Made by a program: the position numbers and the translations under genes
Notes under the pieces: model-generated
Database searches by the model: none
What the model saw: the letters and a program-made list of their open reading frames with translations, nothing else
Told to the model about the DNA's origin: nothing
In this document: positions 28,193 to 33,332 of the stretch, piece by piece
Layout: every line of letters begins with the position of its first letter
Position numbering within the stretch: position 1 is the first letter of the stretch
Source: a virus
Strand: one strand, 5' to 3'
Length of the DNA: 33,332 bases
IMG/VR virus record: IMGVR_UViG_3300042385_002314
Coordinates: 1-33,332 of that record

Positions 28193-29635
28193 TTAATGTT
28201 CCTTAAATTGTTTCCATCTTTGTAATTGCTTAATCAAACTCGCCCAAGCATACTCGTTACCATTTATAGCGTGGTCATTGTTATCTTCACGAGCATCGCC
28301 ATTTTCTCCTTTGCGAGAGTTTTTAAGTTCTCGTATTAAGTTGGGACACGCTTCACTAATTAAGTATTCGTCCCAAGCCATTAACAATCTTATTATATCA
28401 ACTCTGGTTTGTATTTTCATCTTTGTAGATGCACCGAAGTAAACATTGAACAATCCCTTTTGCCGAGCAACGAGTTCTAACCCTTGTCGGAAACCTATAT
28501 CAGCGCTATCAACCCACACATAAGTCACACCCTTCATCAACTTGCGGTGCGAGTTATACACCTCACGCCACTTGATAATGGTATCAACTATCTCGTTCAT
28601 TATTTCAGGTTCTGTCTTGGGCGAAGGAGAACCTGCGTTCGTATAGAAGTATTCATTGAGGCACACAAGTTTAGAGTAGTCAGAGGTTAATCCGACAAGT
28701 TGCATTGTTGTAGCACTGCGAACATCTCCATCACGCTTCACTCTTCCTTCGCCATTGGATAGTCCTGTATCAACTCCGATGGCATAGTCCACAAAGTTAT
28801 ATGAGTTTGCTTGTCCTCTGCTAATGATTAACTTTTCACTATACTCTGGGTAGCAAGAACCTTTGGCGTTACCCCACATACCCAGTCCTTCGACTTTGAA
28901 TATGTCAGGTGCTCTGCGTGATAATTCAAGCATCGCAATATCGTAAACATTTGTATCCCTAAACTCGTTGATTTTATAGTTGTTTATCATCAGGTATAAT
29001 CCTTTGCCATAGTCCCCTATGAAATCATCGTTTATATATTCCATCGAAGGATTAAGCATAAGCGTATCGTAATCGTCCTCTAAGCGACCCTTGAAAAACT
29101 CGGTGTATAACCAACTGTCAATATTCCAAGGGTTGAATATCATTGTAAGTTGATAATATACTCCTGGTGGCGGAACACCACGGATTGAACCGTCTAACTT
29201 GCGGAAGTCATCGTAGGACTTAATTTCAAATGCTTCTTCTATGTAGACCTTACTAAGCACACCAGTTTCGACTGTAATCGAAGTTAGTGACGTAGGTTGG
29301 TTCATTCCACGAAAGATAATGACCTGTCCTGTGGGTTTATACATAATCTTCAATGGGTTGTTGATAACCTTGAAGTGATTTTCAATACCCATAATGCTTA
29401 ACCATCTAACCACGTTGGCAAAGGTTGATTGTCTATTGTTCGCATCAATTTGGCGTATAACAAGCACATTGTTATATTTGTTTTCCAAGATGTCCATAAT
29501 AATACGATAACCCATACCGATTACAGATTTCTTACTATTACGACTGCCTTTGATTAGACGATAGCGACCTTTGAAGTTCCAAAACTTCTCATATCCCTTG
29601 CCTATAAAATCGTAAATGTTTATTTTCTTTTCCAT
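28193..29635 (-). CDS. terL: Terminase large subunit (480 aa)
   Basis: This is the packaging motor with ATPase and nuclease parts. Walker A is the variant KGSRNSKKS (residues 29-37), with lysine in place of the usual second glycine, as I recall from some Bacillota phage terminases. Walker B VYIEEA lies near 129. The C-terminal nuclease has acidic blocks GVDTGLSNG near 283, WVDSADIG near 373 and NNDHAING near 451. I chose the ATG at 29635, with GAGGG upstream, rather than an upstream extension to 29815 that overlaps the membrane gene in another frame. It overlaps that gene by 16 nt. Confidence 0.9.
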   Translation of the reverse strand: MEKKINIYDFIGKGYEKFWNFKGRYRLIKGSRNSKKSVIGMGYRIIMDILENKYNNVLVIRQIDANNRQSTFANVVRWLSIMGIENHFKVINNPLKIMYKPTGQVIIFRGMNQPTSLTSITVETGVLSKVYIEEAFEIKSYDDFRKLDGSIRGVPPPGVYYQLTMIFNPWNIDSWLYTEFFKGRLEDDYDTLMLNPSMEYINDDFIGDYGKGLYLMINNYKINEFRDTNVYDIAMLELSRRAPDIFKVEGLGMWGNAKGSCYPEYSEKLIISRGQANSYNFVDYAIGVDTGLSNGEGRVKRDGDVRSATTMQLVGLTSDYSKLVCLNEYFYTNAGSPSPKTEPEIMNEIVDTIIKWREVYNSHRKLMKGVTYVWVDSADIGFRQGLELVARQKGLFNVYFGASTKMKIQTRVDIIRLLMAWDEYLISEACPNLIRELKNSRKGENGDAREDNNDHAINGNEYAWASLIKQLQRWKQFKEH

Positions 29636-29874
29636 ATGACCCTCATAAAAAAGTAAGCAATAACAATATTCAAAATCCAAAACGGAGTAAAGGGTGCTAA
29701 TATAAAAGCGTAAACAGCACCTGCTACATAGTAACCTCGTGCATCTTGAAAAACAAAACCATACGCTAATGGCAAAAACCAAGGTAGTGAAGTAATTATG
29801 TTGGCGACAATCCAACTAATCCAACCTTCCTTGGTTAGAAATAAGTTTTTCATTTGTTGTTTTAAGTTATTCAT
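29620..29874 (-). CDS. Small two-segment membrane protein between terminase genes (84 aa)
   Basis: Two hydrophobic segments at about residues 18-41 (WISWIVANIITSLPWFLPLA) and 48-76 flank a short loop DARGY, with a basic C-terminus (MRVIWKRK) that suggests a cytoplasmic tail. It overlaps the small terminase stop (ATGA at 29871-29874) and the large terminase start. A membrane protein in this place is unusual. It could be a superinfection or membrane-localised packaging factor; no family is recognised. Confidence 0.65.
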   Translation of the reverse strand: MNNLKQQMKNLFLTKEGWISWIVANIITSLPWFLPLAYGFVFQDARGYYVAGAVYAFILAPFTPFWILNIVIAYFFMRVIWKRK

Positions 29875-30239
29875 TTATCTTCTTTATTATCATCAATAAC
29901 AACAGGCGTTTCATTAGGCACATTGTTTACAACCTTGATAGGTTCCATATTGGTGTTAATATCATAGTCCCTTTGGTTAAGGATTTGTTTACCTAACCAT
30001 ATCGCCATTGATACATTAGTTTCAGCAAGGCGGAACTGTATTCTACGCAAAGAGATTTTGCCCTTTGCCGAGTTCTTTTTATATGTATCCGCAAAACCCT
30101 CACTATAATTCCTAATACACCAGCGTTCAATAGTGTCCTCCGAACAATTAAAAAAGTAAGCAATCTCCGCTAATGTGCATTGTAGAGCACAGAGATTTTC
30201 AAATGCTTTTTCATCTATTTCAATCAGAGGTCTGCCCAT
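29871..30239 (-). CDS. terS: Terminase small subunit (122 aa)
   Basis: This DNA-recognition protein starts packaging. The N-terminal half has a helix-turn-helix (NLCALQCTLAEIAYFFNCSE then DTIERWCIRNY at about residues 14-45), typical of small terminases. A following region (KGKISLRRIQFRLAETNVSM) and WLGKQILNQRD at about 81-91 match the oligomerisation core. The C-terminus is acidic and probably binds the large subunit. The ribosome site is weak and its stop overlaps the next ATG. Confidence 0.8.
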   Translation of the reverse strand: MGRPLIEIDEKAFENLCALQCTLAEIAYFFNCSEDTIERWCIRNYSEGFADTYKKNSAKGKISLRRIQFRLAETNVSMAIWLGKQILNQRDYDINTNMEPIKVVNNVPNETPVVIDDNKEDK

Positions 30240-30240
30240 A

Positions 30241-30762
30241 TTACATTATTTTCTTATAAAATTGTGCTTGATTGTATGTCGCAGCGTTTTCGGTCATCAT
30301 TTTTAGGAAGTCGTCACGAGTAAAGTTACTCAAACGGAAAACTTCTTCGGGTTTCATACCAAGTTGCTTACATATTTCAGCAACAGGTTTACCACTATCA
30401 ACAAGTTCTTGGACAATCGCTTTCATTGGGTCAAGCAAATGTGTTCCACGAGCACGGTTATGAGTAATGGTTCCATACATATCTCCCGCTTTGTCTTCGT
30501 GTTGAACAATAACCACAGGAACTAAACCTGCGAGTAATGTTCTTAATGGTTCTTGCCCTGCAACAGTCCATCGGTGGAAACCGTCAATAATCGTATAATC
30601 TGGTCTAACCACAATAGGCATAGTCCAACCATTAGACATAATTGATTGAACAAGTAAATCCAAGTTTTGTTTATTAACAACGTTTGGGTTATAATTGTTC
30701 GGTTTTAATAAATCTCTTTCAACGAACTTCACATTCTTTAATGGGTATAAAATATCTTTCAT
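30241..30762 (-). CDS. ParB-like (IbrB-type) protein, second pair (173 aa)
   Basis: The N-terminal domain is ParB/Srx-like: FVERDLLKPNNYNPN, then VQSIMSNGWTMPIVV, and the box IIDGFHRW at residues 58-65, matching the GEHRR-type nucleotide-binding motif of ParB. A helical region follows with a helix-turn-helix-like EICKQLGMKPEEVFRLSNF. It is directly downstream of a PAPS-reductase-like gene, the arrangement of IbrA/IbrB. CGAGGAAAT precedes the ATG. It is one base ahead of the small terminase gene. Confidence 0.75.
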   Translation of the reverse strand: MKDILYPLKNVKFVERDLLKPNNYNPNVVNKQNLDLLVQSIMSNGWTMPIVVRPDYTIIDGFHRWTVAGQEPLRTLLAGLVPVVIVQHEDKAGDMYGTITHNRARGTHLLDPMKAIVQELVDSGKPVAEICKQLGMKPEEVFRLSNFTRDDFLKMMTENAATYNQAQFYKKIM

Positions 30763-30764
30763 TT

Positions 30765-31913
30765 TTATTTCCTCGTTTCTTCCATTTTCATAAATGAGAA
30801 CAATTGGTTTAGTATCGACTGGTAACTTCTTTCTTTTGGGTCGCCTCCATAAGCAGTATCATAGCAACCCTTGTAAATCCTGTATTTGTGTCCTTCTTTT
30901 AATCCTTCAATCTGCACACCAAACTTCATCAAGAACGATTTTAATTTGCGTTGTGTTTTCTTTTGAGAAGGACTGTTGAACATACTATTGTTATTAAGGA
31001 GTTTGAATGCTTCTTGTTTGTAATACTTACTATCAGCAATTACAGGAGTTTCTCCTTCTTCTTGAATTATACCGCCAACTTTACTTTTTTGCGACTTTCT
31101 AAACATTTCGGTATCAAAGTAAAGTGTTGCTAAGTAGGCATTTGGTTCACGCTTTAATATCTTGTTGAATAGGTCAGGATAAAACTCAGTCATTTGAACA
31201 AGCGATTTAGCAGTATCCACAGAGAAGAATTGACTAATGCGTAGGAACTTCTTTGTGATGCCAATTTGATACATAAACATATAAGCGTCAGGGAAATCTA
31301 AGTTGTTTTCTTTAATGTATAACCAGATGTCATTATCAAACCAGTCATAGATTGGGTAGAAATAGTTATTACCCTTTGCGGTTGCGATAGCGTTTCGTCT
31401 ACGGAAACTTTCGCTAACTCTAATTCCCACAAGTGAAACTCTTGAAGAGCAATATTTTTTTAGAAACGATTGGTAAGTTTCTTGTCTTGGATAGAAGTAT
31501 GGGTGTCCAGTTACAGCAAACTCAGGCATAGGTCTAACCCAAACATCTCTCTTAGTTTCGTCCCAACAAATAAATGTTTCATCGTTTTGTAGTTGGTTAA
31601 AGCAATTAAAATGCTTACATTGAATAGCAAACCAAGTAAACTTAACGCCAATACTCAACCATTTAATCCGCCAATCTCTCATAATCTTTTCAACAGAAGG
31701 ATAAACGGCTTCTTCGTCAATGAACACAACTTCTAATAATGATTTGTCAACTTCTCCCGATTTACACGCTTTATAAACGAGGTCAGATAAAACAATACTA
31801 TCTTTGCCACCCGATAATGATAAGACAACTCCAATGCCATTTGAGAAAGCGTTTTTAATTCTATGTCGTGCAGCAACTAACACATTGTCTTCTAATGGAA
31901 AAAACTTAATCAA
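30765..31913 (-). CDS. PAPS reductase-like (IbrA-type) PP-loop protein, second pair (382 aa)
   Basis: This PP-loop protein has LSLSGGKDSIVL with the pyrophosphate-binding SGGKDS at residues 34-39, then GIRVSESFRRRNA near 165-178, YPIYDWFDNDIW near 190-200 and LRISQFFSV. These are the blocks of IbrA proteins (PAPS reductase family, DUF3440-like C-terminus). It probably activates a substrate with ATP; no sulfate-reduction partner is present. The frame starts with TTG at 31913, behind GGGGAAG, and overlaps the upstream ParB-like gene by 8 nt. Confidence 0.8.
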   Translation of the reverse strand: MIKFFPLEDNVLVAARHRIKNAFSNGIGVVLSLSGGKDSIVLSDLVYKACKSGEVDKSLLEVVFIDEEAVYPSVEKIMRDWRIKWLSIGVKFTWFAIQCKHFNCFNQLQNDETFICWDETKRDVWVRPMPEFAVTGHPYFYPRQETYQSFLKKYCSSRVSLVGIRVSESFRRRNAIATAKGNNYFYPIYDWFDNDIWLYIKENNLDFPDAYMFMYQIGITKKFLRISQFFSVDTAKSLVQMTEFYPDLFNKILKREPNAYLATLYFDTEMFRKSQKSKVGGIIQEEGETPVIADSKYYKQEAFKLLNNNSMFNSPSQKKTQRKLKSFLMKFGVQIEGLKEGHKYRIYKGCYDTAYGGDPKERSYQSILNQLFSFMKMEETRK

Positions 31914-32526
31914 GGTAAATCACTTCCCCACAACGAGGGCAAAGAACAAACTTTCTTTGTTTCTCAGTTGGAGTGACTGGTGTATCAACAGGAGTATCTT
32001 TTTCCCAAGTAGGAGTTGAAGCGGGAGTTCCTGTAACATACTTTTCATCTCTAACTTCTGCCTTCTCTACGTTTTCTTTTGCCTTTTCGGTAAGCACACC
32101 ATACTTGCTATCGCTTTCTTGTGCGTCCTTTTCAGTAATCGTAATCAATTTCAAACTTTCTTCATCAAAACCAGCAATATCAAAATCGCCAAAATCAGTA
32201 ACTTCCTTAATAAAACTTTCAATGTTGGCATAATCGTCCATACCTAAATCATAAGTTTTGTTATCGGTTAAAATAAGTTTCTTCTTTTGGATTTCAGTTA
32301 ATCCAGTAACAAGCAAAGCATCGCCTTCGGTTCTACCCATAGTCACAAGTGCTTTGTGTAATCCGTTGCCAACTAAGATGTTGTTTTGTTCATCAATAAC
32401 CATAGGTCTTGTTTGACCAAATTGTTCAACACTTCTAACAAGTTCTTTGATTTGACTTTCAGGGTGCATTCGCACGTTCTTCTCTAATGGTTTTAATTTA
32501 GCAAGTTTGACAACAACAATATTCAT
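31906..32526 (-). CDS. ParB-like (IbrB-type) protein, first pair (206 aa)
   Basis: The N-terminal ParB-like domain has LKPLEKNVRMHPESQIKELV, then SVEQFGQTRPMVID and the motif ILVGNGLHKAL (GNGLH at residues 53-57). A proline/threonine-rich linker (TGTPASTPTWEKDTPVDTPV) leads to a half zinc ribbon CPRCGEVIYLD at 196-206 with a single CxxC. The latter could pair with another chain to bind zinc. AAAGGAAT precedes the ATG, which overlaps the upstream stop (ATGA at 32523-32526). Confidence 0.75.
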   Translation of the reverse strand: MNIVVVKLAKLKPLEKNVRMHPESQIKELVRSVEQFGQTRPMVIDEQNNILVGNGLHKALVTMGRTEGDALLVTGLTEIQKKKLILTDNKTYDLGMDDYANIESFIKEVTDFGDFDIAGFDEESLKLITITEKDAQESDSKYGVLTEKAKENVEKAEVRDEKYVTGTPASTPTWEKDTPVDTPVTPTEKQRKFVLCPRCGEVIYLD

Positions 32527-33332
32527 AATTTAATTCCTTTTTCTTTTACATATTGGTCTATTATATTAACCCGACCGATATTATTTTTAATTGTTTGAGG
32601 GTCGCATTGTAATACTTCATCTAATATCGCATACACATTTCCATCTACACAATTTCTTTCAGTCCAAGCGTGAGTTCCGTATACCCAACCATCTTTCCAT
32701 CTGTAAAAGGGTGGCAATGGTATGTCGTTGTATTTAATATATGCCAAGACCTGTTCATGTGTCCAATCTGCTATAATGTTTAATTTTAGCACACCTTCAC
32801 TCTTTGTAGTATATAACTCACGTTCTTTACCACATATATTACCATCAATAATCCTTCTACCTGTAACAAATCCATCAATTTTGTTTTCTTTACACCATTT
32901 GTTCTGGATATGCCATCTGGCAGATGTATACTTCGCATCAAACTCAGGAAACCTTGGATTTGGGAATAACCAACGAGGTTCGGAGTTAAGTTGTTCAGGT
33001 GTAACCATTCCCATACTCACAATTTCACAATTAGCAGGTTTGTTATAATCTACCCACTTCTCAAAAGCGTCATATTCGTTTTCATACTTACAAAATAAAC
33101 CCTTGGTTTTTATCCCTGACTTCTTTATTATGTCATAGATAACCAAAGCGTCTTTTCCGCCACTCCAACCATAACCGATATTCTTAATTGAAAAGTGTAA
33201 TATACTACTCTTTAATCTCATAATAGCGTTTAATGTGAGTTTTCTTACTTCTTCCATAGTTACCAGGGTATCTATATGTTCCCACGCAACTAACCAGTCA
33301 TAATTACTGCTTTTGTTCTTTTTTCCTATCAT
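32523..33332 (-). CDS. PAPS reductase-like PP-loop protein, first pair (269 aa visible)
   Basis: The protein has GYGWSGGKDALVIYD with the PP-loop SGGKD at residues 57-61, followed by FCKYENEYDAFEKWVDYNK, VTGRRIIDGN and a C-terminal WTHEQVLAYIKYNDIPLPPF, which is the typical PAPS-reductase C-terminal helix. It differs from the second IbrA-like protein in length and blocks, so it is not a recent copy. It shares the pattern with the downstream ParB-like gene. An ATG lies exactly at the window edge (33330-33332). The ribosome site is outside, so the true start could be further right. Confidence 0.75.
   Translation of the reverse strand: MIGKKNKSSNYDWLVAWEHIDTLVTMEEVRKLTLNAIMRLKSSILHFSIKNIGYGWSGGKDALVIYDIIKKSGIKTKGLFCKYENEYDAFEKWVDYNKPANCEIVSMGMVTPEQLNSEPRWLFPNPRFPEFDAKYTSARWHIQNKWCKENKIDGFVTGRRIIDGNICGKERELYTTKSEGVLKLNIIADWTHEQVLAYIKYNDIPLPPFYRWKDGWVYGTHAWTERNCVDGNVYAILDEVLQCDPQTIKNNIGRVNIIDQYVKEKGIKL

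Follow-up and report, generated by a model that had tools for sequence, protein, structure and literature searches.

In Escherichia coli, adjacent genes code for the PAPS-reductase-like protein IbrA and the ParB-like protein IbrB, with YbdN and YbdM as the corresponding pair in strain K-12, and IbrAB activates prophage eib genes according to the account of Sandt et al. 2002 given in PMC10763512. Genes of these types are also located directly before the terminase in the ParB-PAPSr-ParB(-methyltransferase)-terminase operons of Cluster B3 mycobacteriophages and Arthrobacter phages, and the actinophage operon includes a methyltransferase next to the terminase. The Dnd/Ssp phosphorothioation systems likewise include a PP-loop enzyme of the PAPS reductase family (DndC or SspD), and DndB is a member of the ParB superfamily (PMC11662687). 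ParBc proteins accompany a proven phage DNA hypermodification, in which an AMP-forming, asparagine-synthetase-like ligase attaches glycine, and one is frequent in the phage operon of the CmoA-CmoX-CmoY system for 5-carboxymethylcytosine (PMC12783734); they also accompany a predicted thymidine system (PMC11955845).

The window analysed here, a stretch of 33,332 nucleotides of viral DNA, carries two pairs of PP-loop (A) and ParB-like (B) genes that belong to a widespread operon, which almost always includes its own transporter gene (T). Existing annotations treat the parts of this operon one by one, as ‘PAPS reductase’, ‘ParB partition protein’ or ‘unknown’, and no prior description of the module was found in the literature searched, which lies mostly outside subscription journals and preprints.

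Comparison with described systems

The second pair of the window resembles the E. coli proteins. B2, which adjoins A2, shares 40% identity with YbdM across 143 amino acids (E 4e-27), and A2 shares 29% with YbdN across 277 amino acids. However, IbrA/YbdN proteins consist of a PAPS_reduct domain followed by DUF3440 (PF11922, found in YbdN at 2.6e-32), and the latter domain is absent from A2. Thus, the original prediction of two IbrA/IbrB pairs holds for A2/B2, albeit with an A2 protein that lacks DUF3440, whereas A1/B1 belongs to another family. The phage module further differs from IbrAB/YbdNM by having this second, unrelated pair, a linked transporter, and a location before the terminase genes. 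The Cluster B3 and Arthrobacter phage operons share this location but have no annotated transporter and no A1, and their first ParB protein lacks the CxxC tail described below.

In contrast to the Dnd/Ssp systems, A1 and A2 have no invariant cysteines and are linked to a transporter, and identification as DndC was rejected on the basis of an NCBIfam TIGR03183 score (18.3 bits) far under the cut-off of 290.4. Compared to CmoA-CmoX-CmoY, the module has a different PP-loop family, an importer in place of a host-made amine, and no conserved C5 methyltransferase. Among 20 module records, some of which may be fragments, a C5 cytosine methyltransferase as needed for the 5cxmC handle is present in two, and a thymidylate-synthase-type hydroxymethylase as needed for a thymidine handle is present in none.

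Organization of the locus

All four module genes are present among the open reading frames of the window, and the predicted order A1-B1-A2-B2-TerS-TerL on a single (minus) strand is borne out. The genes for A1 (32523..33332) and B1 (31906..32526) overlap by 4 nucleotides, and those for B1 and A2 (30765..31913, with a TTG start) overlap by 8. The starts are not overlapping throughout, as had been proposed, because A2 and B2 (30241..30762) are 2 nucleotides apart and B2 is separated by 1 nucleotide from the gene for a terminase small subunit-like protein (TerS, 29871..30239; 122 amino acids, phrog_309 2e-7). The TerS gene is followed by an open reading frame for a small membrane protein of 84 amino acids (29620..29874), for which a family search gave no hit, and by the gene for the 480-amino-acid terminase large subunit (TerL, 28193..29635), a Terminase_3 protein (PF04466, 4e-32). 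No Rfam family or tRNA gene was detected in the window.

The last codon of the record is the ATG of A1, and the window ends exactly there, so that an upstream transporter gene was hidden from view when the original prediction was made. Comparison with a relative of approximately 90% identity, in which a membrane transporter gene is part of the same operon as A1-B1-A2-B2, yielded dN/dS values of 0.05-0.14 for the four genes, and hence purifying selection acts on every one of them. Given these values and the recurrence of the arrangement in more than 100 dereplicated loci, we conclude that it is not due to chance.

In these loci the module opens the late operon and precedes TerL genes from several unrelated families, which agrees with the earlier proposal of a non-random, packaging-linked A-B system. 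Genes for late transcription regulators are located just upstream of the module (of 82 upstream genes, 21 match phrog_36 and 7 match phrog_248). This proximity, together with the homology of B2 and A2 to proteins related to the eib activators as summarized in PMC10763512, would suit a regulatory module in which IbrAB-like proteins co-activate late or prophage genes, the PP-loop proteins serve as nucleotide sensors, and the transporter supplies the signal or serves the lysogen. We consider this explanation unlikely, since late operons already have their own upstream regulator, A2 has no DUF3440, and both the two catalytic-looking PP-loops and the near-constant importer would be left unexplained.

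The PP-loop proteins A1 and A2

The SGGKD PP-loops noted in the original prediction are real and conserved. A1 (269 amino acids, phrog_424) carries WSGGKDA, in which the final A of the window protein is S in 98% of homologues, and A2 (382 amino acids, phrog_2302 1e-75) carries LSGGKDS. Both exceed the Pfam PAPS_reduct (PF01507) cut-off of 22.5 bits, with scores of 32.7 and 46.7, respectively, and thus have the PP-loop fold of the PAPS reductase family. For A2 this is also evident from an AlphaFold model (pLDDT 87), built, as were all our structure models, from alignments that excluded rows from annotated phage records. The A2 model matches PAPS/APS reductases with Z scores of 12-14 and resembles NcsA and TilS, which are tRNA-modifying PP-loop enzymes. 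The protein has a C-terminal helical domain, at the end of which the motif GDPKxR is invariant.

None of 86 A1 and none of 131 A2 sequences contains ECGxH, the redox motif of CysH, and a search for an invariant cysteine among the homologues of both proteins found none. These results argue against sulphate reduction, which we therefore reject as a function. A2 cysteines 96, 104 and 116 are conserved at 84-95%; C96 is missing in the A2 protein of the window and the remaining ones are missing in other members. An essential metal site is therefore not supported for the family, although one is possible for most members.

The ParB-like proteins B1 and B2

The ParB-like character claimed for the B proteins was confirmed by different routes. 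B2 (173 amino acids, phrog_2159 1e-67) contains the sequence IIDGFHRW, passes the Pfam ParB_N model (PF02195) with 32.0 bits, and likely has a C-terminal HTH, as judged from its sequence. B1 (206 amino acids) gives no Pfam match, but matches ParB PHROG 620 (phrog_620) at 1e-39, and its AlphaFold model (pLDDT 84) has a ParB/Srx fold that aligns with Myxococcus xanthus ParB (Z 13.8, 91 residues, rmsd 1.4). The single CxxC tail assigned to the first ParB-like protein (CPRCGEVIYLD at the C terminus of B1) is retained in 129 of 130 homologues. The GERR motif of chromosome-partition ParB CTPases is present in only 2 of 128 B1 and 0 of 129 B2 sequences, and a partition role was rejected despite the fold of B1.

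BLASTP comparisons of A1 with A2 (E 0.007) and of B1 with B2 (E 0.008) give weak matches around the core motifs. The pairs are not simple copies, as had been surmised; the two PP-loop enzymes differ from each other, as do the two ParB/Srx-fold proteins.

The serine kinase SerK and sulfiredoxin, whose substrates are small molecules or protein, are further matches to the fold of B1. Along with the similarity of A2 to NcsA and TilS, this raises the prospect that A1 and A2 adenylate and modify a tRNA, or else a protein of packaging or of the virion, and that the ParB-fold domains serve as NTP-dependent adaptors instead of binding DNA. We regard such a target as quite improbable: other phages have ParB domains of the B1 type in fusion with DNA methyltransferases (phrog_498; MTase_II 7e-15), and the variety of unrelated TerL families downstream leaves no single packaging protein as an obvious target.

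A transporter linked to the module

Sequence scans with single proteins of the window yielded one relative, and alignments were needed to find more. In the resulting survey of the nearest relatives of the window A2, 108 dereplicated loci from phages and prophages have sufficient upstream DNA, and 107 of them carry a transporter gene within 6 kb on the same strand. A2 is always present, B1 is present in 127 of 127 loci, B2 in 125 of 125 and A1 in 75%, and the exact order T-A1-B1-A2-B2 is observed in 72. The operon is conserved and translationally coupled: the transporter gene overlaps A1 or B1 in most loci, and T overlaps or abuts A1 in all 80 cases. Loci L028, L030, L050, L058 and L071 were rejected as transporter-less examples, given that their overextended A1/B1 frames are a gene-calling artefact. 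No A-B fusion proteins occur among the first 107 loci.

The reverse test gave a matching result, as 76 of 77 symporter-anchored viral loci contain B1 and A2, and only 3 of the 1182 genes of 200 or more amino acids at such loci are other genes with at least five TM segments. The transporter is mostly a Na+:solute symporter (SSF; phrog_20720, annotated as unknown function) and rarely an ABC permease with a binding protein. The curated SSF model (PF00474) identifies exactly one SSF gene in 17 of 20 viral records, the other three being of the ABC type or of a short divergent type, and the SSF motif ST-x-DS is present in 85 of 90 symporters from relatives of the window. No ABC ATPase partner gene was found in four ABC-type records. 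By similarity, the symporter is nearest to DUR3/urea, choline and pantothenate carriers, and the binding protein is nearest to SsuA/TauA/ThiY for sulfonate, taurine and thiamin-precursor uptake; the two comparisons gave no common substrate. The presence of unrelated importers in the same position points to transport itself as the shared property.

These similarities, the PAPS-reductase family membership of A1 and A2, and a protein of phage Gaia in which a B2-type domain is fused to ectoine synthase, which is another small-molecule link, are compatible with auxiliary metabolism. In such a scheme, the operon would import a nutrient (a sulphur compound, osmolyte or vitamin precursor) and process it for the host cell under the control of ParB regulators. 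We judge this to be quite unlikely, because the CysH redox motif and conserved genes of any further pathway are absent, and because neither the pre-terminase position nor two ParB proteins per operon would be expected.

A-B pairs more distant than the surveyed loci lack a transporter. Examples are found in Gadjet, FCV-1, 1H, CHPC1148, Gaia and E. coli ybdNM, some of them away from the terminase, and PJN03 has the order B1-B2-A2 with no transporter nearby. Therefore, import is not required by every A-B pair.

The module is carried by phages and prophages of many gut anaerobes (Lachnospiraceae, Oscillospiraceae, Selenomonadaceae, Treponema and Bacteroidales). Examples are Faecalibacterium phage FP_Taranis, an isolate that can be obtained and that has a short symporter with B1-A2-B2, and a prophage of Anaerotruncus colihominis DSM 17241. 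As a portable cassette in many such phages, it might serve counter-defence or superinfection control by consuming a nucleotide or importing a solute and thereby weakening host immunity, with no lasting change to the DNA, and defence systems do contain ParB/Srx and PP-loop proteins (PMC12839542). Nevertheless, expression from a late operon would be late for counter-defence, and PADLOC found only weak similarity to BrxP/DndC for the four window proteins, and we consider this role very unlikely.

Proposed function

Our preferred reading, which we put forward tentatively as somewhat short of probable, is that the window shows four components of a five-component T-A1-B1-A2-B2 module that imports a small molecule, adenylates a target, likely phage DNA, and attaches the molecule before packaging. 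The transporter would supply the infected cell with a small solute. A1 and A2 would then spend ATP to adenylate an acceptor group in the manner of TilS, QueC, NAD synthetase and ligases of the asparagine synthetase type, which are PP-loop relatives, and the adenylated acceptor would be joined either to the solute or to a solute-derived group. B1 and B2 may bind DNA and nucleotide and recruit the PP-loop enzymes to phage DNA, such that replicated DNA would be modified ahead of packaging by TerS/TerL. This reading draws support from the methyltransferase fusions of B1-type domains, the methyltransferase of the actinophage operon, the hypermodification systems with ParBc proteins and the small-molecule link given by the Gaia fusion. 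The roles of DNA as acceptor and of the solute as donor, as well as the sequence of the steps, are inferred; a PP-loop, a ParB fold and a transporter would also be suited to modifying RNA, protein or a metabolite. A further point against this reading is that no base-handle enzyme is conserved to indicate the acceptor chemistry.

A bolder proposal, about which we are decidedly more doubtful, is that the module represents a novel kind of DNA hypermodification in phages, wherein a dedicated virus-encoded importer and two PP-loop/ParB pairs attach a building block directly to unmodified DNA in the late phase, without a hydroxymethyl or carboxymethyl handle. By extension, IbrAB and YbdNM would be DNA-modifying enzymes.

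The linked transporter makes IbrAB-type function chemically testable, in that one can ask which molecule is imported and to what it is attached. If DNA is the target, the chemistry of its modification would be new, and so would the purpose for which a virus encodes a transporter.

Gene content of the module

All seven genes from A1 to TerL are located on the minus strand within the last 5 kb of the window, a linear virus contig from IMG/VR (33,332 bases) whose terminus coincides exactly with the A1 start codon. The products of A1 (32523-33332) and A2 (30765-31913) both score above the Pfam PAPS_reduct cut-off and that of B2 (30241-30762) above the ParB_N cut-off, while B1 (31906-32526) is recognised by its match to PHROG 620 (1e-39) and its predicted ParB/Srx fold. 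A TerS-like gene (29871-30239) and TerL (28193-29635) follow, with an unannotated small membrane ORF of 84 aa (29620-29874) between them, as is also found in the close relative G001.

These coordinates and family matches confirm the A1-B1-A2-B2-TerS-TerL arrangement of the original prediction, which also described overlapping starts. The overlaps hold for A1/B1 (4 nt) and B1/A2 (8 nt), but gaps of 2 nt and 1 nt separate A2 from B2 and B2 from TerS. Given that the core motif is the sole match in pairwise BLASTP of A1 with A2 and of B1 with B2, the two pairs are, judged by sequence, not duplicates, as had been proposed. Compared with the corresponding G001 locus (L003), whose proteins are 90-97% identical, dN/dS is 0.14 for A1, 0.11 for B1, 0.10 for A2 and 0.05 for B2, which indicates purifying selection on all four genes. 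The PP-loop of the window's A1 reads SGGKDA; 98% of homologues carry Ser instead of the final Ala.

A transporter gene accompanies the module

In G001, A1 is directly preceded by a gene for a substrate-binding lipoprotein (NMT1/SsuA family), and this by an ABC permease gene. The human-gut phage contig MT836198 instead carries a sodium:solute symporter (SSF) gene and then A1-B1-A2-B2, with order and overlaps as in the window. Alignment-based scans recovered A2 at 80 viral loci and 80 loci in prokaryote genomes, A1 at 15 viral loci and the symporter at 80 viral loci; once A2 was clustered at 90% identity, 133 representatives remained, of which 131 belong to the module family. Among loci with enough flank, many records being fragments, B1 is present in 127/127, B2 in 125/125 and A1 in 81/108, and a transporter in 107/108, a figure that describes the A2 clade rather than all A-B pairs because the survey was seeded from relatives of the window's A2.

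The order transporter-A1-B1-A2-B2 occurs in 72 loci and transporter-B1-A2-B2 in 22. In rare loci the transporter separates A1 from B1 or follows B2, and the order in Bacteroidales is transporter-A1-B1-B2-A2. That the same partners are kept despite reordering argues for a functional link over chance inheritance. In 80/80 cases the transporter gene runs into or ends directly at the A1 start, and B1 and A2 overlap or abut in 124/125. In the reverse test, B1 and A2 are nearby in 76 of 77 symporter-anchored viral loci, where, of 1182 genes encoding 200 aa or more, only 3 others have at least five TM segments by our crude counts.

Exactly one gene matching the curated Pfam SSF model is found in 17 of 20 large viral records, the other three carrying the ABC type (G001) and a short type. 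Comparison by hhalign shows the short transporters (330-370 aa) to be homologues of the long symporters (probability 98.8, E 1e-16). An ST-x-DS stretch, which we take to be the counterpart of the PutP Na2-site Ser/Thr, is kept in 85/90 symporters, which are thus probably Na+-coupled. One phage symporter (locus L043:4971-6368) corresponds to phrog_20720 (3e-183), listed with unknown function.

ABC-type variants, each with a permease, occur at four loci (L003:4593-6302 in G001, L014, L045 and L087), and a binding-protein gene adjoins the permease in G001, L014 and L087. No ABC ATPase was detected anywhere in these four records, and such modules may borrow the host ATPase. A DEAD/ResIII helicase and a GNAT acetyltransferase are encoded just upstream of the G001 transporter genes (L003:2394-4237). 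Locus L251 reads symporter-A1-TerS-TerL, with B1 and A2 undetected within 6.5 kb. Two adjacent symporter gene calls at L126 and two A1 calls at L171, within the module, could be duplications or broken genes.

Genomic placement

The large genes downstream of the module encode TerL. Twenty-nine were recognised directly; 74 others match phrog_2 (58) or phrog_9 (16), and phrog_38 and phrog_979 are among the additional TerL families represented, so the module accompanies several kinds of packaging module. Upstream genes (n=82) include phrog_1558 in 49 cases, listed as unknown, and the late transcription regulators phrog_36 (21/82) and phrog_248 (7/82). With TerL downstream and late regulators upstream, the module heads a late operon. 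The genome loci with named hosts come from, among others, Lachnospiraceae, Oscillospiraceae, Selenomonadaceae, Treponema, Prevotella and Muribaculaceae.

Protein features and known systems

The PP-loop is conserved in 80/86 A1 and 128/131 A2 proteins. Over residues 5-245, the predicted A2 structure (pLDDT 87) most resembles APS/PAPS reductases, FAD synthase and CysD; the C-terminal helical domain of A2 bears a GDPKxR motif (128/131). Sulphate reduction was rejected because none of the A1 and A2 homologues checked has the CysH redox motif, and neither protein has an invariant cysteine. The only invariant cysteines of B1 belong to its C-terminal CPxCG tail, the single CxxC noted originally (129/130 homologues), for which zinc knuckle, redox and docking roles are all candidates. 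B2 has DGxHR (129/129) at the position of GERR in partition ParB, and that identity was likewise rejected.

The original prediction named the pairs IbrA/IbrB. The A-B pairing stands, but the module is not IbrAB proper, given its lack of DUF3440, its second pair and its transporter. A membership test also led us to reject DndC. The module would work most like phage DNA hypermodification, although its assignment to a described system is not supported, since enzymes known to make the handle are not conserved: C5 methylase is present in 2/20 records and thymidylate synthase in 0/20.

A2-like and B2-like genes co-occur phage-wide (tblastn, 215 and 217 phage records, same main host groups). In Flavobacterium and Streptococcus thermophilus phages, an SNF2-type helicase gene directly precedes a transporter-less A-B pair (loci L266:4157-7021, L262:3759-6670 and L264:2448-5498), sometimes away from terminase. 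ParB-A-ParB-methyltransferase-(TerS)-terminase operons are present in an actinophage and an M. abscessus prophage (L263:3287-8284, L269:906-7501). Because A-B pairs also occur without a transporter, we regard the pair as a general device and the transporter-A1-B1 extension as a specialised form, of which the window is a member.

Possible function

PP-loop enzymes such as TilS, NAD synthetase and asparagine synthetase adenylate an acceptor, from which a nucleophile then displaces AMP. By analogy, the most likely mechanism is one in which a dedicated importer would supply a solute, A1 and A2 could activate an acceptor by adenylation, and B1 and B2 could hold DNA. Four observations speak for DNA as the target. 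Other phages carry B1-type domains fused to DNA methyltransferases, and a methyltransferase adjoins terminase in related actinophage A-B operons. The module, judged by position, is expressed together with packaging genes. Finally, ParBc proteins accompany two systems: that for 5-glycylcarboxymethylcytosine, which is proven and relies on an asparagine-synthetase-like, AMP-forming ligase to join glycine to DNA (PMC12783734), and one predicted to hypermodify thymidine (PMC11955845). The initial interpretation, a packaging-linked A-B system that could modify DNA, tag the packaging substrate or counter host defence, is partly supported.

An independent hint that A-B pairs work with a small molecule comes from mycobacteriophage Gaia gp104 (L265:4527-5426), which combines an IbrB/YbdM-like (B2-type) ParB domain with a full ectoine synthase domain (PF06339, 1e-32) in one protein, and whose gene adjoins a PAPS-reductase-like gene. 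The enlarged module appears to be new to the literature accessible to search, and its high interest lies in the linked transporter, which makes the long-open chemistry of IbrAB-type proteins testable.
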